A stretch of 64,000 nt of DNA. It comes from Asterella californica. Lineage: Eukaryota; Streptophyta; Marchantiopsida; Marchantiales; Aytoniaceae. The position numbers and the translations under genes were made by a program. Location: contig JAYKYS010000004.1 of NCBI GenBank assembly GCA_036924285.1, forward strand, positions 1,922,001 through 1,986,000. The letters are read 5' to 3'. Below, piece by piece: positions 1,746 to 22,410 of the stretch. Each line of letters opens with the position of its first letter. The first letter of the stretch is position 1. A model generated the notes under the pieces. That model had not been told where the DNA came from. It made no database searches and saw nothing but the letters and a program-made list of their open reading frames with translations.

Positions 1746-1749
1746 GTAT

Positions 1750-3016: not shown

Positions 3017-3425
3017 TGTGATACACTTGTGTATGTGTATGACATCGTTCATGTGTTATGTGTATATGTGGTGTATCTATGACAGTGATGTATGTTATGT
3101 AACAATGTGTATGTGCACGACAGCTGCCACTTAAGTTTAGCACCTCGGCTAGGTTGACTGAGTACGTAGTGGTTAGTCCCGGTAAGGCTGTTAGTGCCGT
3201 TAGGACGAGTTCTTGGGCTAACCTCACAAGGGATATACTTCATAAGTAGGGCTTGTAGGCTTTAGTTCTTCCAGTTGAACCTTCAAGCTCTTGGCTATGA
3301 TTGATAGTCTTGGTGAGCGTAATCTGGAAATCTGGATTCTCTTATGCACAGAGTAGATTTGGCTCGACTTTAGTGTTTGTGTAGTGCCGGTTGGTATGGT
3401 GGAGAGAGTTCAGATCATTATTATT
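3017..3425 (+). repeat. Element A copy 1: 3' LTR
   Basis: Begins with TGTGATACACTTG directly after a purine-rich tract (aagagggcgat). It is homologous to the minus-strand sequence 3953-3548. Two blocks can be separated: unit 'A' (about 108 bases, 3017-3124, rich in TGTGTATG) and unit 'B' (about 290 bases, 3125-3425). The right boundary is uncertain because TGTGATACACTTGTG recurs at about 3426-3440, just before the sequence flips orientation. Confidence 0.7.
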
Positions 3426-3440
3426 GTGATACACTTGTGT

Positions 3441-3546
3441 TTGTTGTCGTGCGCATACACATGCTACACAACATACATCGCTGTCAGAGATACACCACAC
3501 ATACACATAACACATGGACGATGTCATACACATACACAAGTGTACC
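3441..3546 (-). repeat. Extra unit A, inverted, at the junction of the two element A copies
   Basis: A further copy of the roughly 108-base unit A, in minus orientation, between the two 3' LTRs. It reads as the reverse complement of 3017-3124. The bases to its left (TGTGATACACTTGTG) are again the start of unit A in plus orientation, so the axis of the inverted arrangement lies near 3440. Confidence 0.75.
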
Positions 3547-3547
3547 A

Positions 3548-3953
3548 CAATAATCTGCATTGAGAAATTACCATCTCCAACACTACAACAAAGATTACTC
3601 ACAAACGGTCAAGCCAAACCCACTCTAAACGCGAAGAGAATCCGGGTTACACTCAACTAGACTATCCACCATAGCCTGGAGCTTGAAGGCTCAACTCGAA
3701 GAACTAAGGTCTCCAAGCCCTACCTGCGAAGTTTATCCCTAGTGGCTCTCCCACCAACTCGTCCTAACGGCACTAACGACCTTACCGGGATGCGCCACTT
3801 CGCACTCGGTCAACCTAGCCGAGGTGCCCAAACTGACGTGACAGCTGTCGTGCGCATACACATCGCTACACAACATACATCGCTGTCAGAGATACACCAG
3901 ACATACACATAACACATAGACGATGTCATACACATACACAAGTGTACCACAAT
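3548..3953 (-). repeat. Element A copy 2: 3' LTR
   Basis: On the minus strand the LTR starts at 3953 with TGTGGTACACTTG, directly after the G-rich tract AGTTAGGGGGGCGAT, which fits a polypurine tract. It consists of unit A (3953-3844) followed by unit B (3843-3548). Unit B recurs as 22320-22029 at the other end of the element with few differences, which defines these as the LTR pair. LTR ends are not perfectly delimited. Confidence 0.75.
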
Positions 3954-4124: not shown

Positions 4125-4349
4125 CTATATACATCGAGGACAAACCCACCGTCCAGTAGGAACTACACTGAGAGGTGGAGTCAAACATGACATGTGCCAA
4201 CCTCTCGAACAACCATCACACACCAACATACGGGCTGCTCCACCAGCAGACCCACACAACATACACCTCAAGCCCGCGCGTACAACTTCTAAGCTTGGGT
4301 CAACGGTACCATCAATGTTGGGAAGATGACATGACGCGCAATTACGCAC
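4125..4349 (-). pseudogene. PHD finger at the C-terminus of element A integrase
   Basis: A complete C4HC3 PHD finger. It has CMLC, an 11-residue spacer, CDGC, WHMSC, a 14-residue loop containing TPPL and GRW, and a final CPRC, with the hallmark Trp two residues before the last Cys pair. PHD fingers read the state of the histone H3 tail, usually K4. It follows the integrase tail and an additional RNCASCH pair, and is closed by TAG. In this copy a TGA (Trp codon in the sibling copy) separates it from the integrase, and the integrase frame has also slipped, so it is no longer translated as a fusion. Ty3/Gypsy chromoviruses carry a chromodomain at this position; no chromodomain is seen here. Inference: the finger steers integration to, or away from, particular chromatin. 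Confidence 0.9.
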
Positions 4350-4381: not shown

Positions 4382-5431
4382 CTAACATGAGTACTCCAGA
4401 AGGTAACACCTCTCGCACTCTAAAATAGTGCGCCATGCGGTCACATCCAACGTCGTCGGTGCGGTCTGCTGTAGATAGATATAATCGCCAGGATGAAACC
4501 TGCGAATCGACGGTCGATAACCTCCTCCTCGGATAGTCGCATATCGCAACGTGTCTCTATGCTGAGCAATCGTTAGGTTCTCAAAAGCCATAGGCATAAC
4601 TCTCCGAAATGTCTCTGCTCGTTGAGAACATGCTCTCACCCACATATCCGGGTCATCAAGGTCCAGCACCTCAGCAGAATCACGACGAATGACCGAAGGT
4701 AGATCTGGATCTCGACCATACAATAGAAAATACGGTGAGAAGAAAGCCAAAGACGCTTGTCGGCTGAAACGGCAACCCGTAGCCAACCATGGTAACTGCA
4801 CATCCCAGTCTCCCAAGTGGCTCTTCTGCAAGCCATACTTGCACAATCCTCTCTTCACCGTCTGAACTACCCTCTCCGCCAAACCATCCGCCTCAAGATG
4901 ATCTCGAGATGTAGTCCGATGGTCAATCAACGCCTGATCACACAAGGCCTGAAACTCACCAAGGAACTCTGTACCTTGGTCTGTCAACACTTCAGCTGGT
5001 GCTCCAAAACGACTCAATACTCGGTCTAAGAACGCGTACGCCGTCTCTTCACTCGCCTTGTCTGGTAATGCCACCAACTCAATCCACTTGGAGAAGTGCT
5101 CCACCATCACCAACACATACTGGTGGTGACGTACGGTCAACGGTAAGGGTCCCGTAAAATCCAAACTCCAACGGTAACCCAACCCCATAATCGGTAAGGG
5201 GTGTAACTGTGGAGTAGGAGCATTAAACGATGCTCGTACTCGATCACAAACCACACATCGTGCGACAAACTGTTGCACATCGACATGCATACCACGCCAC
5301 CAATACTGTCCTTGGAGTAAGCTATGCGTACACTTCACTCCAAAATGTCTCAACTCTTCATGGACATGTCGTACTAACTGTGCTCTCTGGGATGGATGTG
5401 GCACTATCCGTACCCTCCCATCACCCCACAC
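4382..5431 (-). pseudogene. Element A copy 2: integrase
   Basis: Open over 349 codons. The N-terminal zinc-binding region has HVHEELRHFG and then CVVCD (about residues 22-72). The catalytic core has SLDFTGPLP, LTDQGTEFLGEF and DHLEADGLAERVVQT, giving the D, D and E residues with 34 residues between the second Asp and the Glu. The C-terminal domain runs through FHPGDYIYLQQTAP. Integrase inserts the cDNA into the host chromosome. The last 12 or so residues are out of frame relative to the sibling copy, which continues directly into the PHD finger, so this end is frameshifted. Upstream it is joined to the RNase H segment. Confidence 0.92.
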
Positions 5432-5455: not shown

Positions 5456-6181
5456 TCAAAATCTCTTCGTTCGTTGAAGGACACGTTCTCGCTCCTTGGC
5501 ACTTAATGTGCCTACTACCACACCAGTACGTAGATACTCCATCACGGTCACATCATCATGGATATCTCGCTGATCTGGAACACCATCTCCACCCTCAGGA
5601 TCTGGAGACTCATCATCTACTCTCTTATCAGAGAAAGATACGACTTGGCCCTCCATACTAGAGTTCATGGCCAACACACAAAGAAAGGCAGATGCATGCC
5701 ACCCTGGCACTATCTCCTCATCAACCTCGTCATGCCATCGAGCCCCAGTCTGATCATGCTGACTCGTGCACGGGTTGCGACTCAACCTATCGGCATCTAG
5801 GTTTGCAACTCCATGTCTATGTACTACTTGGAAGTCATACTCCTGTAAGATCAGAGCCCATCGTGCAAGCTTCCCTGTAAGCTTGTCGGACTCCATCAAC
5901 CACTTGAGCGGCTGGTGATCAGTGATGAGAGTAAAGGGGTTCCCAAACAGATAACATCGAAAGTGTGCAACAGCCCACACTGCCGTCAAACACTCTCTCT
6001 CATACGAACTATACCTCGTCTCCGCTGAATTGTTGGAGCGATTGGCATACGCCACCACGAACTCCTTTTTCTCATCATCATGCTGAGTCAGCACTGCTCC
6101 AAGTCCCAACATACTCCAATCGGTGTGCAGTTGGAAAGGACGCCCCCTAACGGGTCTCCTCAAGATGGGAGCAGATGTCAA
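5456..6181 (-). pseudogene. Element A copy 2: RNase H
   Basis: An open stretch of 241 codons. RNase H carboxylates are visible in order: Asp in LHTDWSMLGLGAVL, Glu in YSSYERECLTAVWAV, Asp in LITDHQPLKW and Asp in NLDADRLSR. It begins within the connection region (SAPILRRPVRGRPFQLHT) typical of Gypsy polymerases. The C-terminal 100 residues are a linker without a recognised domain, leading to the integrase zinc finger. It is in the right order between RT and integrase. The catalytic set looks intact, but the flanking RT is broken. Confidence 0.9.
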
Positions 6182-6229: not shown

Positions 6230-7218
6230 TCACTCCTGGTCCACCTTCATCAGCTTGGTCAACGGCTTCGCAATTGCACTAAACCCTTTCACGTATCGCC
6301 GATAGAAGTTCGTCAAACCAACAAATGCTCGAACTCGACTCACATCTGTGGGGCGTGGGATACGTGCAATAGCCTCAACCTTCGTCTGTTGAACACCCAA
6401 TCCACCTGGATAGATGGTGTGGCCCAGATACTCTACCAACTCTGGAAGAACTTACACTTCCCAGGGTGTAACTTCAACCCATGAGCTCTCAACCGCTCAA
6501 ACACATCCCGTAAGTGTCTCTCGTGCTCCTCCACTGTAGCACTATAGACTAAGATGTCGTCAATATAACATCTGACAAAATCCAATCTTGCTAGGATTCT
6601 GTCCATCACCCTCTGGAACTCAGCAGGGGCGTTCTTCAACCCAAATGGTAAGAACCTCCACTAATACAAACAATCCTTGCCGCGAGAGTCAATTCCTCAG
6701 AATGCTGTCTTGGACTTATCTTCTTCTCTCACTGGCAACTGATGATACCCTGCTCGAAGATCCAAAGTACTGAAGACCTTCATATGCCCCACTGCATCAA
6801 AGATCTCCTAAGGTGTCGGCACGGTATACTTATCGGACTTCGTCTGTCGATTGATAGGACGGTAGTCTCCACACATCCGCCTATCCGTGTAGTTGCCATA
6901 CATATCCTTCTTGGCTGGCATAACTGTGGCAGATGCATACTCTCCATGCGACATCTCCACCAACCCAGCCTCCAACAAGTCTTGAGTCTGACTCTGGATC
7001 AAGGCTCTCTCCATGTCACTGTACTTGTAAGGACGTCGAAAGATTGACGTGTCATTAGCCAAGTCGATCCGTATACCAAGTCTCTTCAAGGTACCCAAAT
7101 CCTTCGTACTGAAGGCAAAACAATTCCTGTAGCTCTTCAGGAATCTTTGGACTCTTCGTCTCTCCTCTCCTATAAGCTTGGGTCCAATCTCCGGCTCCCA
7201 AGTATCCTCTGTCACCAT
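6230..7218 (-). pseudogene. Element A copy 2: reverse transcriptase
   Basis: RT is spread over three open pieces. 7218-6808 encodes the fingers with IDLANDTSIFRRPYKYSD and MCGDYRPIN. 6639-6433 encodes the palm with KNAPAEFQRVMD and the catalytic CYIDDILVY. 6439-6230 encodes the thumb with VEYLGHTIYPGGLGVQQTK and FVGLTNFYRRYVKGFS. A TAG at 6810-6808 corresponds to GAG in the sibling copy, a TGA and a TAG near 6690 and 6660 replace Trp and Gln codons, and a shift occurs near 6436. The YIDD aspartates are present. RT copies element RNA into DNA. Confidence 0.92.
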
Positions 7219-7242: not shown

Positions 7243-7251
7243 TGACTGCTA
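7243..7251 (-). promoter_or_regulatory. Candidate leaky stop (TAG CAG TCA), copy 2
   Basis: TAG followed by CAGTCA, matching the CARYYA consensus for readthrough of TAG known from tobamoviruses. It is the only stop I find at the same position in both element A copies. All other stops I compared in this copy are private. The frame is open into RT beyond it. This is a candidate translational switch between the upstream products (Gag, protease, DNMT) and the polymerase. Confidence 0.5.
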
Positions 7252-7497
7252 TCTTGCAGCCTCTGGAGCAGTTTTCTTCTGCTCACCACCAACAACCTCC
7301 ACCGCTACTGTGCGAAAAACTTCTGCAGTTCTAGCTGCAAGCTCCACACTCTCTCCTATGACATCCCATGATGTCCAAGGATGACGAACTCCACGTGCCT
7401 CGCCCCCAACCTTTGCCTCCACCGACCCGGTAGGCAAAGAGCTCAAGAGTGCTCGAGCAGTAACACCCGTCGATCGCATCCGACGCTGCTCAGCCAA
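7249..7497 (-). pseudogene. Element A copy 2: linker from methyltransferase to RT, ending in TAG
   Basis: Continues the methyltransferase after a one-base shift near 7498: read in this frame, the sequence following the motif X block LGQAMDLNCLTW becomes LAEQRRMRSTGV. The 82-codon linker (PWTSWD, VELAARTAEVF, GGEQKKTAPEAAR) ends in TAG at 7251-7249, and the same frame then runs into RT without another stop until 6808. The linker is homologous to 2-229 of the plus-strand copy, which stops at the same codon. Confidence 0.75.
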
Positions 7498-8460
7498 TCC
7501 ATGTCAAGCAATTCAAGTCCATTGCTTGACCCAATACTTGATGACGTGAAGTCTCTGACACCGAAGATACTGCCGTCGTACCCGTAGCGAAACCCATCGC
7601 TCGCTCTCTCTCATCGGCATTGAGCTCCACCAACTGCCGTAATTGAGCATCCCACACAAGTCCAGGTCCTCCATCTCTGTAAGCATGTGACGCTGAAAAG
7701 CTTACCAAAGTGGGTAACGCTATCATGGGCCATCCCACTAGGTTCACCACTGCCATGGGTGACCTATCGACGACTCTCATTACTTGAGATCGTCGTCCTG
7801 CATCCAAGATGCTATCAACCGTGAGATGCGCTGGTCGTCTCACTCCATCGTGTGCGCGCTTAAGCACCTCTCTCGGTAACAAGTTCGTCCACCACAACTG
7901 TGGACGATGTGCACGAGATCCTACTCTCGCTGCATCCAAAAACACTGCTGGTCCAACCCAAGACCGCACTTGGTGCACACTCGCCATCATCTGTGTACGA
8001 GCATCACCCAACAAAGGAACGTTCTCCAAGATGTACGCTGGAGAATCCACCTGATGCATCTGGAGATGTCGTAAGATCCGTAACATCTCCCAGAACATCC
8101 TAGATCGCGGGTCATGTAAACCCTGACCTTTCCCAGCACGCGTATGACCTTGACATGGCCATCCGGCTATCACCAAGTGAATGGTGCCAACAAACGTAAG
8201 ATCCTGCGCCCCCAGCAGCAAAATATCCGACGGTAATGCTTGCTGGTATCCTCTAACAGCTGATATGGGCAACAACTCAGGATATCTCTACACCAAACGT
8301 GCCACATGTCGCAATGAGATGCGTCTCACAATCTCATCTCTCTCCACATACAAGTATCGCTGTACTTGTATGCCTGCCTGCAATATCGCAGCCAAACATG
8401 TGCTGATACCTCCAAACAGCTCCAGCACACATACACCCTCCTCTGGATACTGCCACACAA
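7490..8460 (-). pseudogene. Cytosine-5 DNA methyltransferase domain inside element A
   Basis: Lies between protease and RT. Motif I (SAM binding) reads VLELFGGISTCLAA at 8428-8387, followed by YVERDE, a motif II/III-like acidic residue. Motif IV, with the catalytic Cys, is AGWPCQGHT near 8165-8140, then DPRSRMFWEMLRIL. Motif VI is AYILENVPLLGD. A motif VIII-like block is SRAHRPQLWWTNL. A motif IX/X region has ELNADERERAMGF and VLGQAMDLNCLTW. The AHR...W.NL arrangement recalls DNMT3/DRM-type enzymes more than DNMT1. It would transfer methyl groups from S-adenosylmethionine to cytosine C5. In this copy an in-frame TAG at 8290-8288 and a one-base shift near 7498 break it; the catalytic PCQ is intact. 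It shares one frame with the protease upstream. Confidence 0.9.
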
Positions 8461-9871
8461 TGGGAGTCGTATCCAACGGTGATAAGGTCACAGGACCAGT
8501 AGCAGGAACAACCCTTTGTTCCTCTACTGGTGGTACAAAAGCTTCACTCCAAGCCTGCTGCACCAACTGATCAGCATACTGCTGCAACTCTCCACTCGAA
8601 CTCCAGAGTGGACCATCCAAAGCAGATGGTACTAACGTAGACATGCTAGGCATGTCCTCCACCTCCTCAAAGACCGGAGTATCCTCCGCATGGGCATTGC
8701 CCTCCAACAACTCGCTCGGCCAAGTGATGACCAAACTGAACCCTGCAACGGATGTCATCGTCCCTGGTGTAGGCTCCGTCGTCCCAACTCTAGCACTGAA
8801 CCGCACTGGTAAGCGGCTCATTCGTCCCTCACCGGACTGCCAACCTGATCTGTAAGATGCTGTCTCCGCCCAATAGTCGATCACAAACCCCATAGGGTAC
8901 AACACAGCACCTCCCACCAATACATCATAAGACTCTGCGCCTGTAACGATGGTCTTGGCCCTCACCATAGAGCCATCCGTGGGATGATCTGACCGAACTC
9001 TCACCGGCAACATCTCACGTGTCATGTGTAGAGCCGTACCTCCTGATCCCCCTAGAGATGTCTACAACTGGAATGGACATCTCTCTATCTCGGACTTCTT
9101 CAGACCCAATCCAATACACGCCGTCTTTCCCAACATCAACGGTTGGGCTCCAGAGTCTAACAAGACCTTCTGGGATCGATACACTTTTCCTGAAGGTGCC
9201 ACCAAACAGAAGATACCACTTCTGTTGTTCAACAACACCACACCTAGTGCCAAACCAGCACGGTCAATCGCCGGCCTAGCTGGTAACTCATCTAACCTAG
9301 CAGTCGCCGCTTGCCAAGTACCACTGGTAGCTGTCCTGATCCTCGCCTCCATGGACACGTCTACCGCCTCTTGCTGAACTACTTCAGCACTAGAGGTAAC
9401 TACATCCTCGCTCTCACTGAGTGTGGCCGCCAACTGGAACATTGGAGCCAAGTTGACTCCCAATGCCCTCATATCCGTGGTTGAGAATAGTGGAGCTCGC
9501 AAAACTACTGTAGCCGTCCCCAACATCGGGTTCGACGTCGCATCCACAGACGTCGAAGGTGGACTCACATCACACCCACTCCTGGATGTCGATGCCTCCA
9601 ACTCTGCTGTACCATCGGTAGGCCGTTTAGGAACCATAGATGTGGTCCTCAATGCCTCTGATAACGTGAACGACTGGGGAAGCCTGGTCTGTCTACCAGC
9701 CTCCCCGCGTTGTGGATCCAACTCCACTGACGCACCTCGTGGCTCAGAGGCACGTACTGCACCTCTAGTCACTGCCGCAGATGTCTCAATCTGCGCCACA
9801 TCAGCCATGAAGTCGAAGTCACCTCCTTCTCCTTCATAAGACGTGGAAGCCTCTGTTCCACCTGATCTCCG
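8461..9871 (-). pseudogene. Element A copy 2: aspartic protease and linkers
   Basis: A single frame from about 9868 to 8461, broken by TAG at 9064-9062. The N-terminal 190 residues are low-complexity (Ala, Ser, Thr rich). The retropepsin active site is VLLDSGAQPLMLG at about 9166-9128, and the C-terminal part has YDVLVGGAVLYPMGFVIDYW and a YRSGWQSG segment. Retropepsins process the Gag-Pol polyprotein inside the particle. A further Ser/Glu-rich linker of about 140 residues joins it to the methyltransferase in the same frame. The Gag-side boundary is a TAG at 9874-9872 followed by CGG, which may be an acquired stop or the original end of Gag. Confidence 0.85.
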
Positions 9872-10235
9872 CTAAGCCATAGCCATACTAGCTATCCTCT
9901 GCTCCAACTGCTCAATCCGAGCAGCCATACCTGCTTCTGACGTCGTAGCAGACGGTGGACCGACCGGTCCTCTCCCAGGTGCTAGACCTCTACCTCCAGC
10001 TTGACCACCACGGCCTCCCTGAGCTCCTCCGCCTCGTCCACGATCAGCCTTCTCTTGCCGCAACTCGGGATGGAGATCAAAACAACGGTCACTACTGTGA
10101 CCAAGTCATCCGCAATGCTCACATTGCCTAGGTACTGCTTGAGACGTCCCTGATGTCCCTGACGTCTCATAACCTCTCCTCTGTGGACAGTCCCTCTGCT
10201 GATGAGGACCATCACACCTCCCTAGAGAAGGACGG
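9872..10235 (-). pseudogene. Element A copy 2: C-terminal part of Gag, zinc knuckle
   Basis: Continues Gag on the other side of the nested element. A CDGPHQQRDC segment near 10215-10186 looks like a partial knuckle. A second, canonical CCHC box (C-x2-C-x4-H-x4-C) spans roughly 10120-10079, with QCEHCG then LGHSSDRC. Its fourth spacer position is a TGA stop at 10108-10106. A Gly/Arg-rich segment follows, then a short coiled-coil-like end (MAARIEQLEQRIASMAMA). The frame here is shifted by one base relative to Gag on the far side of the insertion when one TSD copy is removed. Gag forms the particle; the knuckles bind RNA. Confidence 0.8.
10232..10235. repeat. Left target-site duplication of B1 (ACGG)
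   Basis: Four bases directly outside the TGTCG terminus of the left LTR. The same four bases follow CGACA at 19565-19568, fixing the boundaries of element B1. Confidence 0.85.
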
Positions 10236-11705
10236 TGTCGAGACGAGAGTTTCCTGGGAAGGGCGAACCTTCTAGCTGTGATACTATCGTGAAGAGGAGG
10301 ACGAAAATCACACACGAAATACGGACCACAAGAAACCACACCATCACGTTCTCGATCTGGCCAAGATAAAACACACGGCGTGCAAGTAGATCTTCAACTC
10401 CAGGTCATTCAGATTGCAAAGCTCACGTTCAGTAACTCAGAATATCAGAAAACTGCTCCTGTGAAGCACTAGCGCGTTCACCTAGAAGCTTCCCGTTTTC
10501 TATTCATAAAGATACACGTACAAGTTCTTGGTCTCTTCTCTACTCGATTCTGCTCTCTACTCTCAATCCCTCGATATCAAAACTCTGATCAGACAGAAGT
10601 TCTCTTCAGACGTAATCTCTGTAAATCTTCTCCTAGCTCTTCGATTTTCTCTACTCGATAGCTCTCGCACGGTAAACTCTACACTACTCGATGATCGGCA
10701 AACTCTGCGATAATGTGATAATGTCTGAGAATTCTCTCCCTCCGGAGTACACCCCTCTGTGTTTTCCTCCACCCTACGTAACCTTCAGTGTCACCTGGCA
10801 GGGATAAAAGACGCCCTAAACAGATGGCAGCAGAAAAATAAAGCACTGATAATAAATCTACACGTAAGAAGACTATTTCACTAAGCTTCGTAGATTCATC
10901 TGTACGGACGGTCACCGACTTGGCTGTACAGTCAGCATCTGCCACCTCCACTCAAAGTAACTCCGTCACGGCTACCTCTGGCCACCGGAATCACCTCGTT
11001 CTGACACGTGGAGTCCGAGTTATCATCATTGTCGTTTCCCGGCCCCTTTAAACTTTGAAGTACCGTAAGTATGGCCTCAAGTATCAGTTTCACCTGTACG
11101 TTTAAGGGACATCTAGTGTCCCGCCCCTAGGCAACTTGGTGCCCCTCATATTCCCCCGAAGGGGCCAGCCTACTCCAAGCCGGTTGTGAGTCTGAAGGGA
11201 TTTGATCTAGAGACCTCCTCCCTACAAGTTTCTCAGCTACACCACGGAAGCTGATCTCACAACTGGTTTTGAAGACCAGTTTCTAAGCTAATATGCTAGA
11301 AAGCTGCGGTATTTCGTCTTTCCTTTGCTAACACGAAGTGCCATAACTTTCTCTAGACATGCTCTTTTTGTACATTTCGAATTTTAATCAAATACTACAT
11401 ACTACAATCTACATGAGAAAAATCTAAAAAGTATTTTTCGAACTCACTCTGATTTATGGTAAATTTCCCGGTATCAGAAATCTTGTAGAAGAACTCCAAG
11501 TAACTTTTCGCCTGCAACTCCGTTTGCAACTTTTGAACATACCACGGTGATCAGCGCGACGAGACCTACGCCGTGGTGTTTTCAGAATTTCGAATGCTCA
11601 CTTCCTCCAGAATCGACTTCTCTGAGGTCTTAGCTTCACTCAGAGAGACTAACTTCTAACAAAGAGGTGAATTATTCACCATGTGGAATAATTCACATCA
11701 CGACA
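10236..11705 (-). repeat. B1 3' LTR (1,470 bp)
   Basis: Starts TGTCGAGACGAGAG and ends TTCACATCACGACA on the plus strand. It matches 18014-19564 except for one internal block. Between 10912 and 11081 it carries a segment (block X, about 170 bp) that the other LTR lacks, and it lacks a 251-bp segment (block Y) present there. A tRNA-like stretch with box A and box B resemblance lies at about 11200-11290 on the minus strand. Confidence 0.95.
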
Positions 11706-11722
11706 TCCACCCCCTCCAAACC
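11706..11722 (-). promoter_or_regulatory. B1 polypurine tract
   Basis: On the minus strand GGTTTGGAGGGGGTGGA directly abuts the TGTCG start of the 3' LTR. It is the expected primer for plus-strand DNA synthesis. Confidence 0.85.
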
Positions 11723-11838
11723 TGCACATCCTCTGGCATGTGCCAACCTCTTCATCCTTCTGTCGTTTCATCATCATCATTTCTCTCATCCGCCTCAACC
11801 TCTTCAGTAGCCGAGGCGTCTTCATCTCTCGTCATCCT

Positions 11839-12990
11839 CTACTCAGACTCCAGAAAGTTGAACAAATCTACTGATCCTCCACGTTGTTTGAACAACTTCA
11901 CTCGTTTGCCAGCCACATATAGGTTCAAAGGAGTATCATCCAACTCACGTAAACTATAAGTGGCATTCTCATAAACATCTAACACAACATAAGGTCCGAA
12001 CCATCTTCGCGAGAACTTACGAAGTGTAGAATGCTGGTTCTCCAGCGTGCTATCATACACTAGAACCCAATCACCAACACGTATTGGCTTTGGTCGTAGT
12101 CGGTGAGTCTTATCGAAACGCTCTTTGTTTCTAACTCGAGCCACCTTCAGCTTCTCTTGCGCTTCAGCAAGATCCCCTTCCCTTCGCTCCAACTGCCTAG
12201 TTCGTAAAGCAAGGAGTGAAGTATGATCTATACCATCTTCCCACGGTAGCGTAGCCCACGTAGGAAAGTCCTCCTCAGCAGGCATGATTGGCTTCTGCCC
12301 CGACATAAGCTCAACTGACATATACCCAGTCGTGGTACAGTGTGTAGTCCTATCAGCCCATAAAGCAAATGGAAGTAGTCTCGGCCATTCTCTAGGCCTA
12401 CCATCACATGCTTTCACTAAAGCGTGAACAATAGAAGGGTGTCTTCGTTCACTCTTACCAATCCCTTCCGGATTCATGGCAGTAGTAAGTCGAAGTTTTA
12501 CTCCATAACGAGCAAAGAACTCCTTCGCTTCTGCACCTCTCAGCTCGCCCCTATCTGCTCGTAGTCTTCCAACAGATCCATAACGACAGATGATATCTTC
12601 AAGCATGAATCTACATATGTTCTCTGTAGTCTTCGTCCGCAGTGCTCGTCCCTCCACGTAGTTGGAGAGATCTTCTCGAGCCAACACCAAATAACGCATC
12701 CCCCATAGTCTCGGCGGCATCATCACAAGATCAAGGACCCACGAAAAATGAATACTAGGTGGGTAGGTAGGTACAAGTCCATCTCTGTAGCGAACCTTGG
12801 AGTAGAACTGACAGTGCAGACACGACCCAACAAAATCCACCACGTCTTGATACAAGCCTTTCCACCAGTATCGCTCCTTCATCTTCGTGTATGTAGCCCA
12901 AACTCCACGGTGTCCAGCCCACAAGGTGTCATGAAACTCCTTCAGCAGATTCAACTTCGTCGGTTGATCATCCACTACTCTAGCCAACAT
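11839..12990 (-). CDS. B1 integrase (intact frame)
   Basis: 383 codons open from an ATG (MLARVVDD). The zinc-binding domain has FHDTLWAGHRG (two His) and CLHCQ (two Cys). The catalytic core has WVLDLVMMP, LRADRGELRG and TTAMNPEGIGKSERRH, supplying the D, D and E residues. The C-terminal domain contains FSRRWFGPYVVLDVY, a GPY/F module typical of Ty3/Gypsy. It would insert element cDNA. An in-frame TGA at 13017-13015 separates it from RNase H, and the same TGA is found in copy B2. No chromodomain follows; the product ends in an acidic tail. Confidence 0.9.
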   Translation of the reverse strand: MLARVVDDQPTKLNLLKEFHDTLWAGHRGVWATYTKMKERYWWKGLYQDVVDFVGSCLHCQFYSKVRYRDGLVPTYPPSIHFSWVLDLVMMPPRLWGMRYLVLAREDLSNYVEGRALRTKTTENICRFMLEDIICRYGSVGRLRADRGELRGAEAKEFFARYGVKLRLTTAMNPEGIGKSERRHPSIVHALVKACDGRPREWPRLLPFALWADRTTHCTTTGYMSVELMSGQKPIMPAEEDFPTWATLPWEDGIDHTSLLALRTRQLERREGDLAEAQEKLKVARVRNKERFDKTHRLRPKPIRVGDWVLVYDSTLENQHSTLRKFSRRWFGPYVVLDVYENATYSLRELDDTPLNLYVAGKRVKLFKQRGGSVDLFNFLESE

Positions 12991-13014
12991 CCCATCTCTT
13001 CTCTTCGGACGTTT

Positions 13015-13563
13015 TCACAGATAACCTTCACGTAGAAGGTAACCGTACGCTTTTCTTCTGATCTCCTTGAACTCTGCATCACTCCATCCTTCTCTTATGC
13101 ATAATAAACTCAGATAATAGCCGATATCGCGGAACTTTTCCGTGTAGAGCTCTTCGTAGAACGGCAGTGGTTCCAAGTCTGAAGTCTGCTGATCAACTTG
13201 GCACCAAACGTCTCTCTTCTCCTCATCTTCGACTTCTGTAATCATCTCTTCTTCATCTGTATAACAAGCCCTAGATAACATGTATGCAACAGGATTATCC
13301 TTTCCTGCTATATGCTTCAGCTCAGGGTTCATACTCCGGATATAAGCAATCCATCGTAGCATTGCTATGTCTGGAGTATTACAGTTTGCTATCATACCTA
13401 ACAAAGGCAAACAGTCTGTTTCTAGTATCACACGAGCTCCTATCAAGAACTCTCGATCTACCTTCATAGCAGTAACAGCTCCCCACAACTCACGCTTCAC
13501 TTGAGGATAGTTACGTTGCCTATCTGTTAAGATCCGAGCTCCAAACCTTGAAACAAACCGCAC
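13015..13563 (-). CDS. B1 RNase H domain
   Basis: Continues RT in the same polyprotein after a TGA (Trp codon in B2) at 13593-13591. Conserved segments: RNYPQVKRELWGAV with the catalytic Glu, LETDCLPLLGMI with Asp, and HIAGKDNPVAYMLSRA with the last region altered from DMLSR (B2) to YMLSR, so the terminal Asp is replaced by Tyr. The first catalytic Asp lies in TVDTSPKTIG at the end of the RT frame. It would degrade the RNA template during reverse transcription. The lost Asp should impair activity. Confidence 0.85.
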   Translation of the reverse strand: MRFVSRFGARILTDRQRNYPQVKRELWGAVTAMKVDREFLIGARVILETDCLPLLGMIANCNTPDIAMLRWIAYIRSMNPELKHIAGKDNPVAYMLSRACYTDEEEMITEVEDEEKRDVWCQVDQQTSDLEPLPFYEELYTEKFRDIGYYLSLLCIREGWSDAEFKEIRRKAYGYLLREGYL

Positions 13564-13590
13564 ACCTTCTGCATCTTCTTGACCAACTGC

Positions 13591-15351
13591 TCATCCAATC
13601 GTCTTTGGACTCGTGTCAACAGTCAGTATGATAGGTCTTCTGCTCTCGTAGCTAAGTCTCCTTAGTATAGGTGGAGACTTCAAAATCTCCTTAAGCTGCT
13701 CCATCGTCTCGTGATGTTCTCGCCGCCAAGTAAACCTCTTCCCTTTTCTCAGAAGTGCATACAGAGGCTCGGCAATGTGTGCATAATGAGGAATACTCAC
13801 ACGAAAGAACACACAAGCTCCTAAGAATCGTCGAACCTCAGTGATGTTGGTACAATCTGCTATCCTTGCTATAGCATCTACCTTCTCTGGGTTCGGCCGT
13901 CTTCCAAAAGTACCGCATAAGTGACCCACCACCACGATCTCTGACATTCCAAAACGAGATTTGGTACCTGACAGAGTGAGGTGTACCTCTTCCAAGCGCA
14001 TCAGAATCTTCTCCACATCTCGGATGTGGTCTGCAACGAACTTTCTGCAACCATCAGCAGTCATAGTCTCGTCCTTGTCCTCCACCGGACAGCCTTTCAT
14101 GGGGATATCATCAAGAAATGGGATAGTAACCTCAGGTACAAACTCTCGTAACACCTTATGCATCGCGTTTTGCATATGAGCTACTGAGTTTGTCGCACCC
14201 TGAGGAAGAGTACACATCCGCATCAACCCCAAAGGTGTACGCATGGTAGTCAAGTCTCTACTCTCCAAAGCAAGCTGAAACTGATCATAACCTGAAAACA
14301 GATCTCCAATAGAATAGATAGATCTTCCAGCAAATGCCTCGGCTACTTCATCAACCACAGGTCCTGTTCCAACGTTTCGAATCGTGATGTTGTTAGCAGG
14401 CTGTAAGTCTTGGATGAAGCGTAAAGCTCCTGTCTTCTTAGGTACTGTGAACCATCGGCTAGAATACGAAGCCATAGATGGTTCAAGAATACCCATCCGC
14501 ATCCTCTCCTTCAGTAACTCAATAACCTTCGGTAGCAAGGCACGAGGGACTGGAATCGACTTCAAGTCCCAAGGTACGTGAGGAACAGTGAAGATAACCA
14601 TCGGAGCTATCACACTAAGATCCACACAACCAATCTCTCCAGCTGAGAAAGAAAATGCCTTACCATGGCTAACTATCATCTGCTCAAAAGCTCGTTTCTC
14701 CACTTCAGTCAAGAAGCCACCCCCTCTTATCTGGAGCTGCTCGAGTGTCTCTTGAGTAAACTCGTGTCCTATTTGTTTAGGATCTCTCAGTACAGGCTCA
14801 GTGACCGCTAACTCCATCTGCTGTCGTGAATCAACAGGTAACTGAGTCGCCACTGGTTTCACTTTCTTTGCTACAGTTTTGTATTTGGTGTGAACCTCTG
14901 CTTCTTCACGAGAGCCACACCAGCAGATTGCATCCTTCCATCCACTCTCTAGTCTCGGATGAGGACGAGATTGTAAGCACGAGATAACCTCCTCATAGAC
15001 TTTACGAGAGTGGATAGGGATCACCACCCTTCCTCCCATCTGCTCCATCAACCTATCTACATCATCCAGCCAACGAACAAAAGACTGTACACCTACAAAC
15101 TCCTCGTAAACACCAGAAATCATCTCACCTTCGTTCAGAACTCCTGTACAATACAGATTTTCTGCATATTTCTCCATCTGCCTCCTACTCTTCTCAGTCA
15201 AATCCTCTACTCGCGTGAACTCACTCCAATCATCAGAACCGAAAGTCATCAAACCAGATTTCCAACTATGTACAGTGTAGCAGTTTTCAGAATCTTGAGC
15301 AACCTCTTCGTCTGTCTGCTGTGATCTCACAGGCTGCTCAAGCGGAATCAT
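13591..15351 (-). CDS. B1 reverse transcriptase (intact 586-codon frame)
   Basis: The N-terminal third has no recognised enzyme domain. The RT core includes VPKKTGALRFIQDLQPAN, SIGDLFSGYDQFQLAL, GLMRMCTLPQGATNS and the catalytic IPFLDDIPMKG, so the usual YxDD box is FLDD. The thumb and connection region has RRFLGACVFFRVSIPHYA and LRKGKRFTWR. It starts after the -1 frameshift signal at 15369-15411 and is in the -1 frame relative to the protease. The methionine at 15351 is probably internal, because the frame is open back to the shift site. Confidence 0.92.
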   Translation of the reverse strand: MIPLEQPVRSQQTDEEVAQDSENCYTVHSWKSGLMTFGSDDWSEFTRVEDLTEKSRRQMEKYAENLYCTGVLNEGEMISGVYEEFVGVQSFVRWLDDVDRLMEQMGGRVVIPIHSRKVYEEVISCLQSRPHPRLESGWKDAICWCGSREEAEVHTKYKTVAKKVKPVATQLPVDSRQQMELAVTEPVLRDPKQIGHEFTQETLEQLQIRGGGFLTEVEKRAFEQMIVSHGKAFSFSAGEIGCVDLSVIAPMVIFTVPHVPWDLKSIPVPRALLPKVIELLKERMRMGILEPSMASYSSRWFTVPKKTGALRFIQDLQPANNITIRNVGTGPVVDEVAEAFAGRSIYSIGDLFSGYDQFQLALESRDLTTMRTPLGLMRMCTLPQGATNSVAHMQNAMHKVLREFVPEVTIPFLDDIPMKGCPVEDKDETMTADGCRKFVADHIRDVEKILMRLEEVHLTLSGTKSRFGMSEIVVVGHLCGTFGRRPNPEKVDAIARIADCTNITEVRRFLGACVFFRVSIPHYAHIAEPLYALLRKGKRFTWRREHHETMEQLKEILKSPPILRRLSYESRRPIILTVDTSPKTIG

Positions 15352-15368
15352 AGTAGTAACAGATCTAT

Positions 15369-15411
15369 CACTCTTGGTATCCCGACCTACAAGAGTGGTT
15401 TCTGAAAACCC
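15369..15411 (-). promoter_or_regulatory. B1 programmed -1 frameshift signal, protease to RT
   Basis: On the minus strand the heptamer G GGT TTT (15411-15405) lies in the protease frame in X XXY YYZ register. A 7-base spacer follows, then an 8-bp perfect stem, CACTCTTG and CAAGAGTG (15397-15369), with a 13-base loop. The protease stop TAG (15389-15387) falls inside the hairpin, and the RT frame is closed by TAA (15414-15412) immediately before the heptamer, so any shift must occur in this window of about 24 bases. B2 has the same arrangement. Confidence 0.85.
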
Positions 15412-16229
15412 TTACTCCTACAGACAGGAGAATCTCTCAAAGTTTGTCTGTTTCGTTCGTGGTTCGTACGAACGGTCAGAAACTGAACAGAACGTCTGTC
15501 ATCTGGACTACGGATCCTAGCATAGTGAGATCCATCATCCATCACCTTCGTCTCCATCCTAACTGCGGTGATATAAGGCTGACCAAGAATTACAGGATAC
15601 GAAGCAGAAGACTGCACGAAGAAGTGCTGATCTACCTCCACATCACCTAGCTTCACCCTCACGTTAGGACAAGCGCCGTATAACTCACCCTTCTGGTTGT
15701 TTGCAGCTCGTAGCACCCAACCATGGTTCAGTTCGATAGGCCACTGACCTCTCTCATACACCTCCCGTGACATGATGTTGATCTCTGAACCGTGATCAAC
15801 TAACGCAGCAACAGGTTCAAGACTTCCGAGACGAACTCGTGTAGCCGTCGTAGCACGAGCCCAGTGTCTCTTCCTGAAGTCACTATCAGTAGCTGGACTC
15901 TCATCGTCAGCTTCATCATCATCGAATTCAGCAGTATTGGTATCAGCAACCAACGCTTCTTGCTGGAACTCTGTATCATCAGCCTCCTGAAAATGCACCT
16001 TGCCGAACTCTGCATCATTCATAGAAGCTCCTATCACATCAATCATCTGACTTTCTACTTGCTCGGACATCACCTGTCTCTTCCGCTTGATGATGTCGAT
16101 GATCAGCTCGTGAAACTCCCTCTTCGCAATACCAAGAACTTCCCGAAGAGAAAACTCGATTCGCGCGTCAAGTATTCTCTGCTCCAGGATGCTCTTGAGA
16201 TCAGTTGAAGTTTCGATATCAGCTGCCAA
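15387..16229 (-). CDS. B1 aspartic protease
   Basis: 280 codons in the same frame as the distal Gag piece. The active-site motif is AALVDHGSEINIMS, so the usual D-S/T-G is DHG. It is followed by HGWVLRAANNQKGELYGACP and SYPVILGQPYITAVRME, the flap and C-terminal block of a Gypsy retropepsin. Identical active-site residues in B2 suggest DHG is a family trait and not a private mutation. It would cleave Gag-Pol. The frame ends at TAG inside the frameshift hairpin. Confidence 0.88.
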   Translation of the reverse strand: MAADIETSTDLKSILEQRILDARIEFSLREVLGIAKREFHELIIDIIKRKRQVMSEQVESQMIDVIGASMNDAEFGKVHFQEADDTEFQQEALVADTNTAEFDDDEADDESPATDSDFRKRHWARATTATRVRLGSLEPVAALVDHGSEINIMSREVYERGQWPIELNHGWVLRAANNQKGELYGACPNVRVKLGDVEVDQHFFVQSSASYPVILGQPYITAVRMETKVMDDGSHYARIRSPDDRRSVQFLTVRTNHERNRQTLRDSPVCRSKGFQKPLL

Positions 16230-16397
16230 CTTGTAAGCCGGTCCCTTCTCCTTCTCTTGGGCAGTAAACCGTCTCCCAGCAGTCGTTGGCTCCTACTGGG
16301 ATCTCTGCACGTCCTCCATCGGACCTGGTGCAGGTGAAGGAGCTGCAGAAGTAGATGAGACATCTTCTGGAGGGGCTGCTCGCCTCCTTGTGACTCT

Positions 16398-17974
16398 TCA
16401 TCTGTCCCTAGTCTCCTCTGGAACTCCAGTATCAAGTTCAGAGGCTTCTCGCCGCCTCTTCTTCTCCACAGAAGCATCCTGCCAGTGAACGTGTCTATCC
16501 ACGTCCAAGAATGCTTTGATAGACGCAGCGTCAACAGGATCTCCCCACCCTGTGACCCTACGGATAGTTTCTGCTCCTCTCTTCAGTACTTCAGAAGGAA
16601 CATGAACAGGTTTCTTCTCAGTAGTCCTATCTAGCAACGTAGGACTAGAAGAAACTTCAATGTGACCGGCATATACATCAAGATTTACCGGTGGTGCCAT
16701 CAATGCATGTACAGTTGCAGCAGCTGTAATCTGAGGTAGACTCCTCATGCCTCCTTGTCCAAACTGCGTGCTTAGCGGCTCTCCAGTAGAAGAGAGGTGC
16801 AGCCTACCGTTCTGGTAGCGAACCACACCATCTCGCAGAGCAACCGTGAGCTCTTGACAGTCTCCTCGGAAATGATCTTGACTGTCACACCAGATACATC
16901 TACGAACAGGAGCACCTCCTGGACGTGCAGCAACAGGCGCCGGCGGCTGCTCTCTCTGCAATCCAGCTAGCTCCACCTTCAATTCTCTCATCTGCCGAAT
17001 CAGGTCTTCGATCTGGTTCTGCTGTCCATGGTTCTCTGCAGGTCTTTGAACCGGTGCCCTTTGTGCAGGAATTGGCACCACTGGTATCAAAGGTACTGCA
17101 GCCGGTACAACAGGCTTGGGAGCAGGAGCCGGAGGTTGCTGTACTTGAGGAGCAGTGCGAGGTTGAGCGGTCACTTCTGCAAGCGGACGTCCTCTCACAG
17201 CCACTCTTCCACGCCTTTGTCTCGTCAATACAGCAACAGCATCCTCAACTCTCCCCAATCAGTAGTAACTCCTCCTTCAGCCGATCGGTCAGCCAACATA
17301 AAGCATAACCGATCTGCCGTAGCATCATCGGTAGCTTGCAGGAAAAGCTCGATTTTCCTAGCATCTAAGGTTATCCTCTCAAGAGTTGAGAGTTGTCGGT
17401 ATCTCCGATCAAACTCTCTCAGCATCTCATTCAGGTTCATCATACGACCAGGTTGCTGCTCAACCCAGTCCAGAAACGTTCTTCTAGTGACTCTCTCTGA
17501 ATCTTCTTCGAGAAATTCCTCTCGAAGAGATCGTTCGAAACTCATCCAGACACCTAGATTTTTTCTCTGTACATCCCTAACCTGGTCCCGCAACTCAGGA
17601 ATTACAGCTAACTCAAAACATGATATCATCTCTATATCAGTAACTCTAACCAGTTCCATCTCTCCTCGGTACTCACGCAGATATCTAGAAATATCTCTTC
17701 CTTCAAACCTTCCACATCTATTAACTATCGCTTGCAAAGCTTTGGTAGATTTCAACTCACCCCCTCCAACGATCGGATGCTGTTGGACCAAGGCCGCAAG
17801 CGTTTTCAGGATCTCAGCTGTATCAAGACCAGATGCAGATGTCGCAGCAGTCGCAGGTGCAACAGCAGGTGCTGCAGCAAACGTAGATGCAGCAGTCGTA
17901 GAGGTAGCACCAGCAGCGCTTCCGCTCTTCCGATCCATCTTCCTCTTTGTCTTGGAACTCAACTTCACGGTCAA
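16398..17974 (-). pseudogene. B1 Gag
   Basis: Read as two overlapping pieces, 17974-17225 and 17258-16398, split by loss of one base in a C run (TCCCC here, TCCCCC in B2). The likely start is the conserved MDRKSG at 17938. Capsid-like blocks include GRFEGRDISRYLREYRGEME, FLDWVEQQPGRMMNLNEM and ERITLDARKIELFLQAT. A CCHC knuckle (CIWCDSQDHFRGDC, C-x2-C-x4-H-x4-C) lies near 16900-16860. A TGA near 16400 and a TAG near 16305 separate it from the protease, with which it otherwise shares a frame. Confidence 0.9.
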
Positions 17975-17990
17975 TCACCCCAAGAAGCCT

Positions 17991-18006
17991 CTCAGTGGAA
18001 GCACCA
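17991..18006 (-). promoter_or_regulatory. B1 primer-binding site
   Basis: TGGTGCTTCCACTGAG on the minus strand, 7 bases inside the 5' LTR end. It starts with TGG, as expected for pairing with a tRNA CCA end, and is conserved in B2 at 54714-54699. I cannot name the tRNA with certainty. Confidence 0.65.
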
Positions 18007-18013
18007 GATTGTA

Positions 18014-19564
18014 TGTCGAGGCGAGAGTTTCCTGGGAAGGGCGAACCTTCTAGCTGTGATACTATCGTGAAGAGGAGGACGAAAATCACACACGAAATAC
18101 GGACCGCAAGAAACCACACCACCACGTTCTCGATCTAGCCAAGATAAAACACACGGCGTGCAAGTAGATCTTCAACTCCAGGTCATTCAGATTGCAAAGC
18201 TCACGTTCAGTAACTCAAAATATCAGAAAACTGCTCTTGTGAAGCACCAGCGCGTTCACCTAGAAGCTTCCCGTTTTCTATTCAGAAAGATACACGTACA
18301 AGTTCTTGGTCTCTTCTCTACTCGATTCTGCTCTCTACTCTCAATCCCTCGATATCAAAACTCTGATCAGACAGAAGTTCTCTTCAGACGTAATCTCTGT
18401 AAATCTTCTCCTAGCTCTTCGATTTTCTCTACTCGATAGCTCTCGCACGGTAAACTCTACACTGCTCGATGATCGGCAAACTCTGCGATAATGTGATAAT
18501 GCCTGAGAATTCTCTCCTTCCGGAGTACACCCCTCTGTGTTTTCCTCCACCCTACGTAACCTTCAGTGTCACCTGGCAGGGATAAAAGACGTCCTAAACA
18601 GATGGCAGCAGAAAAATAAAGCACTGATAATAAATCTACACGTAAGTAGACTATTTCACTAAGCTTCGCAGATTCATCTGTACGGACGGTATCAGTTTCA
18701 CCTGATTTTTCGACCCAAGTGAATAATATTTCGAACTCTACATTTTTCTACAAAAGAATTGGTACCGACTTGGAGTATCTTTGATGCCATCTCGCTACCC
18801 CAGGACTTAGAGGGCCGCAACCGAATTCGTACTAATTACCCCGCCAACCCGAAGGTGAGAGGTCCATTTCGAAACCCGGTGGTAATCTCCCTCTAGCATC
18901 CACACTAGGTGACTGCACTAGTGCAGGGGTAGACGGAGGCGTCCCGCATTCACGGTACGTTTAAGGGACATCTATTGTCCCGCCCCTAGGCAACTTGGTG
19001 CCCCTCATATTCCCCCGAAGGGGCCAGCCTACTCCAAGCCGGTTGTGAGTCTGAAGGGATTTGATCTAGAGACCTCCTCCCTACAAGTTTCTCAGCTACA
19101 CCACGGAAGCTGATCTCACAACTGGTTTTGAAGACCAGTTTCTAAGCTAATATGCTAGAAAGCTGCGGTATTTCGTCTTTCCTTTGCTAACACGAAGTGC
19201 CATAACTTTCTCTAGACATGCTCTTTTTGTACATTTCGAATTTTAATCAAATACTACATACTACAATCTACATGAGAAAAATCTAAAAAGTATTTTTCGA
19301 ACTCACTCTGATTTATGGTAAATTTCCCGGTATCAGAAATCTTGTAGAAGAACTCCAAGTAACTTTTCGCCTGCAACTCCGTTTGCAACTTTTGAACATA
19401 CCACGGTGATCAGCGCGACGAGACCTACGCCGTGGTGTTTTCAGAATTTCGAATGCTCACTTCCTCCAGAATCGACTTCTCTGAGGTCTTAGCTTCACTC
19501 AGAGAGACTAACTTCTAACAAAGAGGTGAATTATTCACTATGTGGAATAATTCACATCACGACA
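18014..19564 (-). repeat. B1 5' LTR (1,551 bp)
   Basis: Starts TGTCGAGGCGAGAG and ends CACATCACGACA on the plus strand. It lacks block X of the 3' LTR but carries block Y (18705-18955, 251 bp). Adding the missing block to either LTR gives the same 1,721-bp length. Outside these blocks the two LTRs differ by few substitutions. Confidence 0.95.
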
Positions 19565-19568
19565 ACGG
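19565..19568. repeat. Right target-site duplication of B1 (ACGG)
   Basis: Same four bases as 10232-10235, directly after the CGACA terminus of the right LTR. Confidence 0.85.
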
Positions 19569-20639
19569 CATGGGTTTCTGCCCACCAGATCCTCCAACAC
19601 CTCCCTGAGATCGTGATTGCTCCGCACGATCCTTACCACCACCACCACCACGCTGTTGCGTAGCCTGTGATCCTCGAGAAGAGGTGGTCGTTCCATGTGG
19701 TGTTTCCTTGCTGAACCCAGCAACCACCACCCTCTCCTCCACCATGTTGAGCTCAATCCGCTCAGCCAGACTAAAGACAACCGTCAACGTCGGAGCGGTA
19801 TCTCTAAGGAGAGTAGCATCTCTAACTCTCCTTCGTAGCTCCCGGTCTAGTATCCCATACCAGAACTGGACTGCCTGTGCTTCCGTCACCCCTTGGGTAA
19901 CGCTGATCAACCGCCTCATGCGAGTAAACGTCTCGCGTAGGCTCTCTCCAGTCTTCCGCTGGAACTCTTGCAGACTCCTCAACTTGTCGGTCCGCACACC
20001 CTGATAGTTCTTCCTCAAACATTGGAAGAACTGAACCACAGGGTTAAACCCTGGTGGTATCCCGCTCACACTACCACCTGCTCCACTACTTGTGGACGCA
20101 CCGATAGTAGGTATTCCGCCACCTGTGGTTGTACCACTGCTACTGGCACCCGAACTCGCAGGTGCTACGCCTCCCGGAACTGCGCCAGTAGTGATAGAAA
20201 CGTAATTGGGAGACCAATGCTGTCTCCACAACTCGATCTCAACACTGTAATCTCGCCTGAACTCATGATAATCGTCCATCGGCGGTCCCTCCAAGTGCTG
20301 GAACAAACCCTTCTACGCCATGAAGGATGTAAACAGCTGTGGGTCCCGCATCTGCTGCAGATCGCACCAACTGTCGAACTCCTGGATGAAGTCATCCAGC
20401 TCAATGATACCAACTGTACCCGAGTAACGTCGAGGCCCCTTGGTGGCCTCATAGATCTCGTCCATGTCCCACAACAACGGTGTGGCGACACTAGACTCAC
20501 CACCAGAAAACGCGCTGTCTGCGTCTGACTCGTCCTCTGGAACAACCGACGGCAATGGTGTAGGTAGTCGGTACCTCACCCCACTCCGTGTATACCCACT
20601 GTCCGAGAAGTCCCTACCAGAACCTCCCGAGAACTCCAT
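19565..20639 (-). pseudogene. Element A copy 2: N-terminal and capsid part of Gag
   Basis: Starts at ATG 20639 (MEFSGGSGRDFSDSG). 109 codons run to a TAG at 20315-20313, and the same frame continues to the B1 insertion. A Ser/Asp-rich N-terminus is followed by a retrotransposon Gag region: DDYHEFRRDYSVEIELWRQHW, then FFQCLRKNYQGVRTDKLRSL, GESLRETFTRMRRLISVTQG and a LMV-like ELNMVEER segment. The C-terminal end is Gly/Gln rich. The methionine fits because the upstream leader has stops and no similarity to Gag. Insertion of B1 cuts it after GGQKPMP. Confidence 0.85.
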
Positions 20640-22028: not shown

Positions 22029-22320
22029 AATCTGCATTGAGAAATTATCATCTCCAACACTACAACAAAGATTACTCACAAACGGTCAAGCCAAACCCAC
22101 TCTAAACGCGAAGAGAATCCAGGTTACACTCAAATAGACTATCCACCATAGCCTGGAGCTTGAAGGCTCAACTCGAAGAACTAAGGCCTCCAAGCCCTAC
22201 CTGCGAAGTTTACCCCTAGTGGCTCTCCCACCAACTCGCCCTAACGGCACTAACGGCCTTACCGGGATGCGTCACTTCGCACTCGGTCAACCTAGCCGAG
22301 GTGCTCAAACTGACGTGACA
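22029..22320 (-). repeat. Element A copy 2: 5' LTR (unit B portion)
   Basis: Nearly identical to 3548-3840. On the plus strand both start AATCTGCATTGAGAAATTA and end CAAACTGACGTGACA. This pairs it with the 3' LTR. The unit A that should follow is inverted (see 22321-22410). Confidence 0.8.
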
Positions 22321-22410
22321 TTGTGTATTACATCGTCCATGTGTTATGTGTGTGTGATATATCTCTGACAGTGATGTATGTTGTGTAGCGATGTGTATGC
22401 GCATGACATA
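22321..22410 (+). repeat. Unit A in opposite orientation at the outer end of element A
   Basis: TTGTGTATTACATCG...GCGCATGACA matches unit A in plus orientation, whereas at the 3' LTR of the same element unit A is in minus orientation. The outer LTR end is therefore rearranged, or unit A is an independent small repeat. Confidence 0.65.

Follow-up and report, generated by a model that had tools for sequence, protein, structure and literature searches.

The window analysed here, a stretch of 64,000 nucleotides from Asterella californica, contains on its minus strand a Ty3/Gypsy long terminal repeat (LTR) retrotransposon (copy A), for which the original prediction had claimed an encoded cytosine-5 DNA methyltransferase (DNMT). 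We confirm that a DNMT domain lies between the retropepsin (PR) and the reverse transcriptase (RT) of this element. In a Pfam scan of the open reading frame (ORF) 7493-8275, PF00145 matched significantly (E-value 7.8e-10, 39.1 bits against a cut-off of 22), and 244 proteins match the DNMT piece at E ≤ 1e-3. The predicted motifs I, IV, VI, VIII and X were all located in the minus-strand translation (I, VLELFGGIST, 8428-8399; IV, GWPCQ, 8164-8150; VI, ENV, 8026-8018; VIII, approximately 7927-7883; X, LGQAMDLN, 7534-7511), and their order is canonical and unrearranged, which rules out the DRM order. The further claim that the DNMT is in frame with the protease holds: translated with X at stops, PR and DNMT share one reading frame. 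As corrections, of the three in-frame TAGs in the piece 9898-7493 (9874, 9064, 8290) the last interrupts the DNMT domain, so that motif I falls into an ORF of its own (8288-9025), and the frame shifts directly after the DNMT, near 7495. The element is much longer than its DNMT stretch, extending from the Gag start at 20465 through RT, RNase H (RH), integrase (INT) and a PHD finger down to 4131, and has the order PR, RT, RH, INT with a DDE integrase that defines Ty3/Gypsy elements.

By sequence and predicted fold, the methyltransferase is DNMT3-like. Both the family profile and the fold modelled for homologue P0001 are nearest to DNMT3 among solved structures. An origin from DNMT1 or CMT was rejected, as neither occurs among the 57 PDB sequences that match the family profile up to E 10; the predicted-fold list comprises the best 50 entries, so that absence of a family from it does not by itself exclude that family. 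The PF00145 score and the homologue searches also rule out chance or a host gene as the source of the match. Copy A itself is dead and unable to make an intact enzyme because of its in-frame stops, its frameshifts, which with further stops also affect Gag, RT and the INT-PHD junction, and the insertion of another Gypsy element.

The best homologue of the DNMT piece has 77% identity (E 1.1e-128). Among the best 120 of the 244 matches are proteins of Sphagnum troendelagicum (74% identity), Riccia sorocarpa (72% over part of the length), and Calypogeia fissa and Marchantia (up to 70%). A search admitting longer proteins gave 72 matches, including Marchantia polymorpha, Calypogeia, two Sphagnum species and Closterium sp. 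NIES-53 (28%); 21 of these rows are from M. polymorpha and belong to several annotation series, hence do not represent 21 loci. With a distant family member we obtained 212 matches, the best 120 of which include two polyproteins of Haematococcus lacustris. The remaining rows are mostly metagenomic, without organism name. Since relatives occur in liverworts, peat moss and green algae, this kind of element is widespread and maintained and not a one-off; Marchantia has an open ORF1 of the window type (e.g. P0122).

When domain orders were assigned to 303 proteins by family-segment matching, the DNMT was found in two neighborhoods, with 128 of the 303 being DNMT pieces without a neighbor. Type I, to which copy A belongs, has the order Gag-PR-DNMT followed by RT-RH-INT-PHD; in type II, RT-RH-DNMT-INT-PHD form one predicted protein, with all five domains in 77 cases. 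The original prediction had looked to further copies with the DNMT between protease and RT, and these exist, all in other species: six predicted proteins (P0128, P0129, P0134, P0137, P0163, P0186) and, at the DNA level, contig locus L068. In three others (P0135, P0168, P0205), a domain of the series is absent, perhaps because the gene model is wrong or the copy has decayed. Neither viral contigs nor genome contigs were matched with P0001 as query. Profile A3 found 31 loci in genome contigs, of which the four covering the Pol domains (L065-L068) entered the analysis. In viral contigs, profiles A1 and A3 found 20 and 44 loci, respectively, with weak, partial methyltransferase matches that we took for ordinary phage or bacterial enzymes.

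To judge from its conservation, the type II DNMT is maintained to the same degree as the RT. The median pairwise identity over the 77 full-length proteins is 44.7% for the DNMT and 43.1% for the RT (RH 52.9, INT 50.6, PHD 45.0), compared to 29.4 and 25.8 for the linkers beside the DNMT and 44.3 for the linker between INT and PHD. In the alignment of 213 DNMT stretches (230 to 449 residues, counts over ungapped rows), the catalytic cysteine is present in 201 of 204 rows, the motif VI glutamate in 209 of 213 and the motif VIII tryptophan in all 213; the proline preceding the catalytic cysteine is found in 99 of 205.

In copy A and in L068, the DNMT is followed by what is probably a readthrough stop. 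L068 is a 9.3-kb contig with a type I element whose ORFs are open; it is filed under a cyanobacterial metagenome-assembled genome (MAG) and is taken here as eukaryotic contamination. The part of its ORF1 that the contig covers (positions 3-3488, PR and DNMT) ends at a TAG (3489-3491), and ORF2, carrying RT-RH-INT-PHD and open over 1047 codons, lies in the same frame. The hexamer after the stop is CAATCA in L068 and CAGTCA in both copy A (stop 7251-7249) and a second, partial copy in the window, copy B (stop 227). According to the available text of PMC3542737, efficient readthrough in tobamoviruses has the consensus UAG CAR YYA; this context, with an open frame beyond, is thus shared by copies A and B and the distantly related L068, the frame in copies A and B being open at first and broken by stops later. 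Because ORF1 ends at this signal and ORF2 continues in frame, the DNMT belongs with Gag, ahead of the probable readthrough stop. Copies A and B agree in 96% of the 75 columns around the stop; the median is 86.7%, and 1.2% of 671 overlapping stretches attain as much. On both window strands, CARYYA follows 13 of 6111 stop triplets, the pair in copies A and B included, and on the plus strand of L068 the junction is the sole case among 299. Further ORF1 proteins of type I likewise stop a short way past the DNMT: among 32 type I rows, the window's excluded, those without RT or INT after the DNMT have tails of 0 to 168 residues, some of which may be contig-end cuts.

The PHD finger at the integrase C-terminus, an arrangement pointed out in the original prediction, proved real and, by its sequence, is a trait of the family, 101 of the 102 PHD rows fitting the C4HC3 pattern. 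Its closest solved relatives are largely readers of histone H3, a resemblance from which we infer that it may bind unmodified H3K4.

Several family members carry further domains. Past the PHD finger of P0182 (approximately residues 1081-1222), a segment with the motif LDPFAGNG resembles by eye a second S-adenosylmethionine (SAM)-dependent methyltransferase, with no Pfam match there; P0222 matches it weakly. A PTM/DIR17-like Tudor domain follows the PHD finger or integrase in the type II proteins P0171 (by Pfam) and P0190, P0188, P0193, P0294 and P0302 (by segment match), and a G-patch (PF01585) is found in other members. L065-L068, P0044 and P0228 are apparently eukaryotic retroelements filed in bacterial MAGs (Mollicutes, Halanaerobiaceae, Synechococcales, Obscuribacterales, Minisyncoccia).

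Two of these loci, L066 and L067, encode PR, RT, RH, INT and PHD in one ORF on contigs filed under bacterial MAGs and have no DNMT match in either slot. L065 has no DNMT between RH and INT, its contig beginning at the RT with the first slot outside. In a tree of RT-RH-INT (the 77 type II proteins cut to 11, six type I rows, and L065-L067), type I forms one group (support 100/100), as do L065-L067 (100/100), and type II is not resolved. As the DNMT-less sisters carry the PHD finger and group apart in these data, the PHD-integrase may be the older trait and the DNMT a later addition; alternatively, the DNMT may have been lost in L065-L067. The DNMT tree comprises 68 rows thinned from 213, with the window entered twice and a human DNMT3A fragment as the one reference row. 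In it, the window groups with rows of Calypogeia and Marchantia and with three that lack a name (100/99), and 39 type II rows form one group with four of unknown order (100/99); its root is the single very long branch of the human fragment, and the bootstrap had not settled. In an integrase tree with the other Gypsy integrases of the window and one very long row, a common group of types I and II was neither established nor rejected (approximately unbiased test, p-AU 0.507). The DNMT may have been captured once and then moved slot, or it may have been captured twice.

The left end of copy A consists of an inverted unit A (22408-22322) followed by part B (22320-22029), the right end of A-B (3951-3552) plus a further A (3551-3445). 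Part B is therefore repeated directly (96.9%) while the outermost units are inverted, and the outer ends form inverted repeats TGTC...GACA despite the DDE integrase, as judged from a single left end. No usual primer site or target duplication of copy A is evident by eye. From this one copy, we regard DIRS-like termini as a lead suggested by the sequence.

Copy B is more decayed than copy A, with 85% identity between 1-1728 and 7480-5725 and about 80% beyond, and is cut by the window edge directly downstream of the expected DNMT position. The two copies differ by 392 transitions and 103 transversions. A C in copy A is a T in copy B at 25.5% of CHG, 22.3% of CG and 14.2% of CHH sites, and in the other direction at 13.4%, 8.2% and 4.4%, a pattern that fits plant-like CG and CHG methylation of both copies, whichever enzyme was responsible. 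The CpG ratio (0.74 in copy A, 0.73 in the whole window) does not differ and is uninformative.

Table 1. Features of copies A and B in the window.
Feature	Positions	Strand	Basis and remarks
Copy B: end of ORF1, leaky stop at 227, RT, RH, INT, PHD remnant, LTR	1..~3440	+	ORFs, identity to copy A
Extra unit A at right terminus, ends GCGCACGACA	3445..3551	-	97% to unit at 3846-3953
3' LTR-like repeat A-B, purine-rich tract AGGGGGGCGA before it	3552..3951	-	sequence
PHD finger, integrase C-terminus	4131..4265	-	PF00628 E 2.1e-12; frame broken here, fused in relatives, e.g. P0168
Integrase, H2C2 and DDE core	4385..5431	-	PF00665 E 4.4e-16, PF17921 E 3.8e-15
RNase H	5459..6181	-	PF17917 E 5.7e-36
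Reverse transcriptase, decayed, YIDDIL near 6567	6300..7218	-	translation; family match for 5' piece; ends approximate
UAG stop followed by CAG UCA, end of ORF1, in frame with RT	7249..7251	-	tobamovirus-type readthrough context
DNMT3-like C5 DNA methyltransferase, motifs I-X	7493..8450	-	PF00145, homologues, homologue profile and model against DNMT3; TAG at 8290
Retropepsin, DSGA 9157-9146, DVLVG from 8926, TAG at 9064	8789..9208	-	family match PR, residues 231-370 of piece 7493-9898
Gag C-terminal part, zinc knuckle near 10123 broken by stop	9875..10235	-	translation; approximate
Nested unrelated Gypsy element splitting Gag	10236..19564	-	terminal repeat pieces 97.9% and 99.7% identical
Gag N-terminal part, start M 20465, early in-frame stop	19565..20465	-	translation; continues at 10235
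5' terminal repeat, part B	22029..22320	-	direct repeat of 3552-3843; 96.9% over 292 bp
Left terminus: most of 107-bp unit A, inverted, begins TGTCATGCGC	22322..22408	-	91% over 89 columns

The start of the N-terminal Gag part is similar to that of the Marchantia protein P0122, and a Pfam scan of 19560-20306 gave no match there; nor did the retropepsin have one in the Pfam scans of window proteins. The nested Gypsy element is flanked by an ACGG target duplication. No Rfam match was found anywhere in the window. At 3015-3953, copies A and B meet tail to tail in a near-palindromic arrangement, their opposed LTR-like ends joined at about 3442, where just the first 17-20 bp remain of the last A unit of copy B. 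Elsewhere, two direct repeats of 1.9 kb (46187-48132 and 54738-56683, 99.7% identical), which contain Copia-like integrase coding sequence, flank another copy of the nested Gypsy element (48036-54733); either Copia DNA may have entered its LTRs or a Copia element may have been duplicated. The coding region of this second copy has a 326-bp tandem duplication (51119-51751, 96%), and a large palindrome of 2.1 kb, 75% identical to its own reverse complement, lies at 40922-43060.

On balance, we favor the reading that copy A is a dead copy of a Ty3/Gypsy lineage with an integrase-PHD that took up a DNMT3-type C5 methyltransferase, by which it would premethylate its cDNA, and whose insertion would be guided by histone H3. 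Most ribosomes would end at the UAG and a minority would read on to yield Pol, so that the DNMT would be produced at the level of Gag and packaged into the particle. There it could methylate the double-stranded cDNA de novo, the copy entering the nucleus premarked, and the INT-PHD could steer insertion to chromatin with unmodified H3K4, the home of methylated DNA. Defences aimed at unmarked DNA would overlook new copies that are inserted premethylated into silent chromatin, and the host would bear a lower cost. More tentatively, and with the doubts outweighing the support, the same may be proposed for an old green-lineage clade of PHD-Gypsy elements in chlorophytes, charophytes and bryophytes, which would combine a DNMT3-type writer with an H3-tail reader, place the writer either within Pol or, with Gag, ahead of a dose-setting leaky stop of plant-virus type, premethylate their cDNA and insert into matching chromatin.

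Several observations weigh against these proposals. The residue before the catalytic cysteine in type II is glutamate in 71 of 102 rows, proline in 17 and serine in 10, so that catalysis may be altered there. Motif I patterns matched only 108 of 185, 106 of 213 and 90 of 149 rows, and motif I may be lost in some members or their ends cut; the low counts more likely result from strict patterns, since the GG of motif I (G814, G815) is invariant across 20 aligned full-length type II proteins. As the type II DNMT lies in Pol, a dose at the Gag level is no rule of the family, and the sisters L066 and L067 indicate that the lineage is able to do without a DNMT. CARYYA also follows stops elsewhere, once on the minus strand of L068, in L065 at 5966 outside the Pol ORF, and once each on the minus strands of L066 and L067, and the sites in L065-L067 are unrelated to any DNMT. 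The PHD finger also resembles in fold UHRF1 with H3K4me3, EHD3 with H3K4me1 and readers of acylated H3K14. Finally, the DNMT of KnitGypsy-Dnmt3, an element of Klebsormidium nitens, gave no methylation in yeast, a result that its authors consider inconclusive in the part of PMC5890265 available to us.

Alternative readings were weighed as well. It is conceivable, if unlikely, that the DNMT serves self-restraint: it would methylate new copies, which the host would silence at once, limiting the damage and making the element tolerated. The prevalence of C-to-T differences at CHG and CG sites, as in heavily methylated plant copies, fits this idea, which the accessible discussion of PMC5890265 also raises; host enzymes explain the same decay, however, and selection for restraint would be weak while other elements share the genome. 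We hold it for distinctly unlikely that the DNMT acts mainly in trans on the host genome, methylating control loci or saturating the methylation machinery as a means of anti-silencing or counter-defence, with cDNA not its main target. A DNMT encoded with Gag, ahead of a leaky stop, would be abundant, and the available text of PMC5890265 discusses host-wide effects in Symbiodinium, but in both arrangements the DNMT is part of a polyprotein that also has PR or Pol domains, which favors action inside the particle. That the DNMT is a passenger or structural domain, its fold binding SAM or DNA or aiding particle assembly with catalysis dispensable, would agree with the glutamate in type II and with the existence of sisters lacking the domain; given the near-invariant catalytic cysteine and a conservation equal to that of the RT, we consider it very improbable. 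An absence of capture, with a host DNMT gene lying beside or broken by a retroelement or with an assembly chimera, might be suspected from the broken, invaded window copy and is refuted by the same fusion in predicted proteins of many genomes and contigs and in L068.

Since methylation is a main host weapon against transposons, elements that bring their own DNMT, keep it like their RT and pair it with a domain of histone-reader type allow the role of methylation in the life of a transposon to be tested directly, and Marchantia, a genetic model with an open type I ORF1, makes the question approachable by gene removal. The spread of the family is also a caution for tallies of DNMTs in algal and bryophyte genomes and for some methyltransferases named in bacterial MAGs, part of which may be retroelement genes.

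Retrotransposons with a DNMT, a charophyte Gypsy among them, have been known since 2018 (PMC5890265, available text), and some DNMT3 members are reported to sit in LTR Copia and DIRS elements of streptophytes and dinoflagellates in the part of PMC12344493 available, whose supplement may already include some of the elements described here. New in our analysis is that the DNMT, together with Gag, precedes a UAG in tobamovirus readthrough context. In the openly licensed PMC literature, supplements aside, we found no DNMT retroelements of bryophytes or chlorophytes and no mention of the PHD finger, of the leaky stop, of the DNMT-less sisters or of the second arrangement.

The chromodomain that chromoviruses carry on the integrase C-terminus is a histone reader thought to guide insertion; in the family described here, the integrase bears a PHD finger as its reader, and the element has a DNMT besides. 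The animal enzymes DNMT3A and DNMT3B are the nearest solved relatives of the catalytic domain in both sequence and fold. DNMT3A combines an ADD domain and a catalytic domain in one protein, whereas type I elements have reader and catalytic domain on separate products; the ADD of DNMT3A and DNMT3L reads H3K4me0 (PMC11021467, available text), and neither ADD nor PWWP turned up in the Pfam scans made. The stop context of copies A and B and L068 is that of the tobamovirus readthrough site, but the putative site lies here between DNMT and RT. SymbioDIRS-Dnmt3 and SymbioLINE-Dnmt of Symbiodinium likewise place a DNMT on a retrotransposon, and the domain of the former methylates CG in yeast (PMC5890265, same text); their carriers are a DIRS element with tyrosine recombinase and a LINE, in contrast to the Gypsy element with DDE integrase in the window.

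The original prediction had suggested a relative of the charophyte type, and this is borne out in kind: KnitGypsy-Dnmt3 is described in the available text of PMC5890265 as a Gypsy polyprotein with an unrearranged, intronless Dnmt3-type domain, and Closterium is represented in our set (P0186, 28%). The likeness is one of description; no Klebsormidium name appears among the homologue rows listed (including the best 120 of 244 and the best 120 of 212), most of which are nameless. The repeats of KnitGypsy-Dnmt3 are arranged as in DIRS elements according to the same text, and the inverted outer termini seen in copy A may be comparable. The window family differs from it in the PHD finger, in a Gag-side DNMT ahead of a leaky UAG and in the order RH-DNMT-INT, none of which the accessible part of PMC5890265 mentions for the Klebsormidium element.
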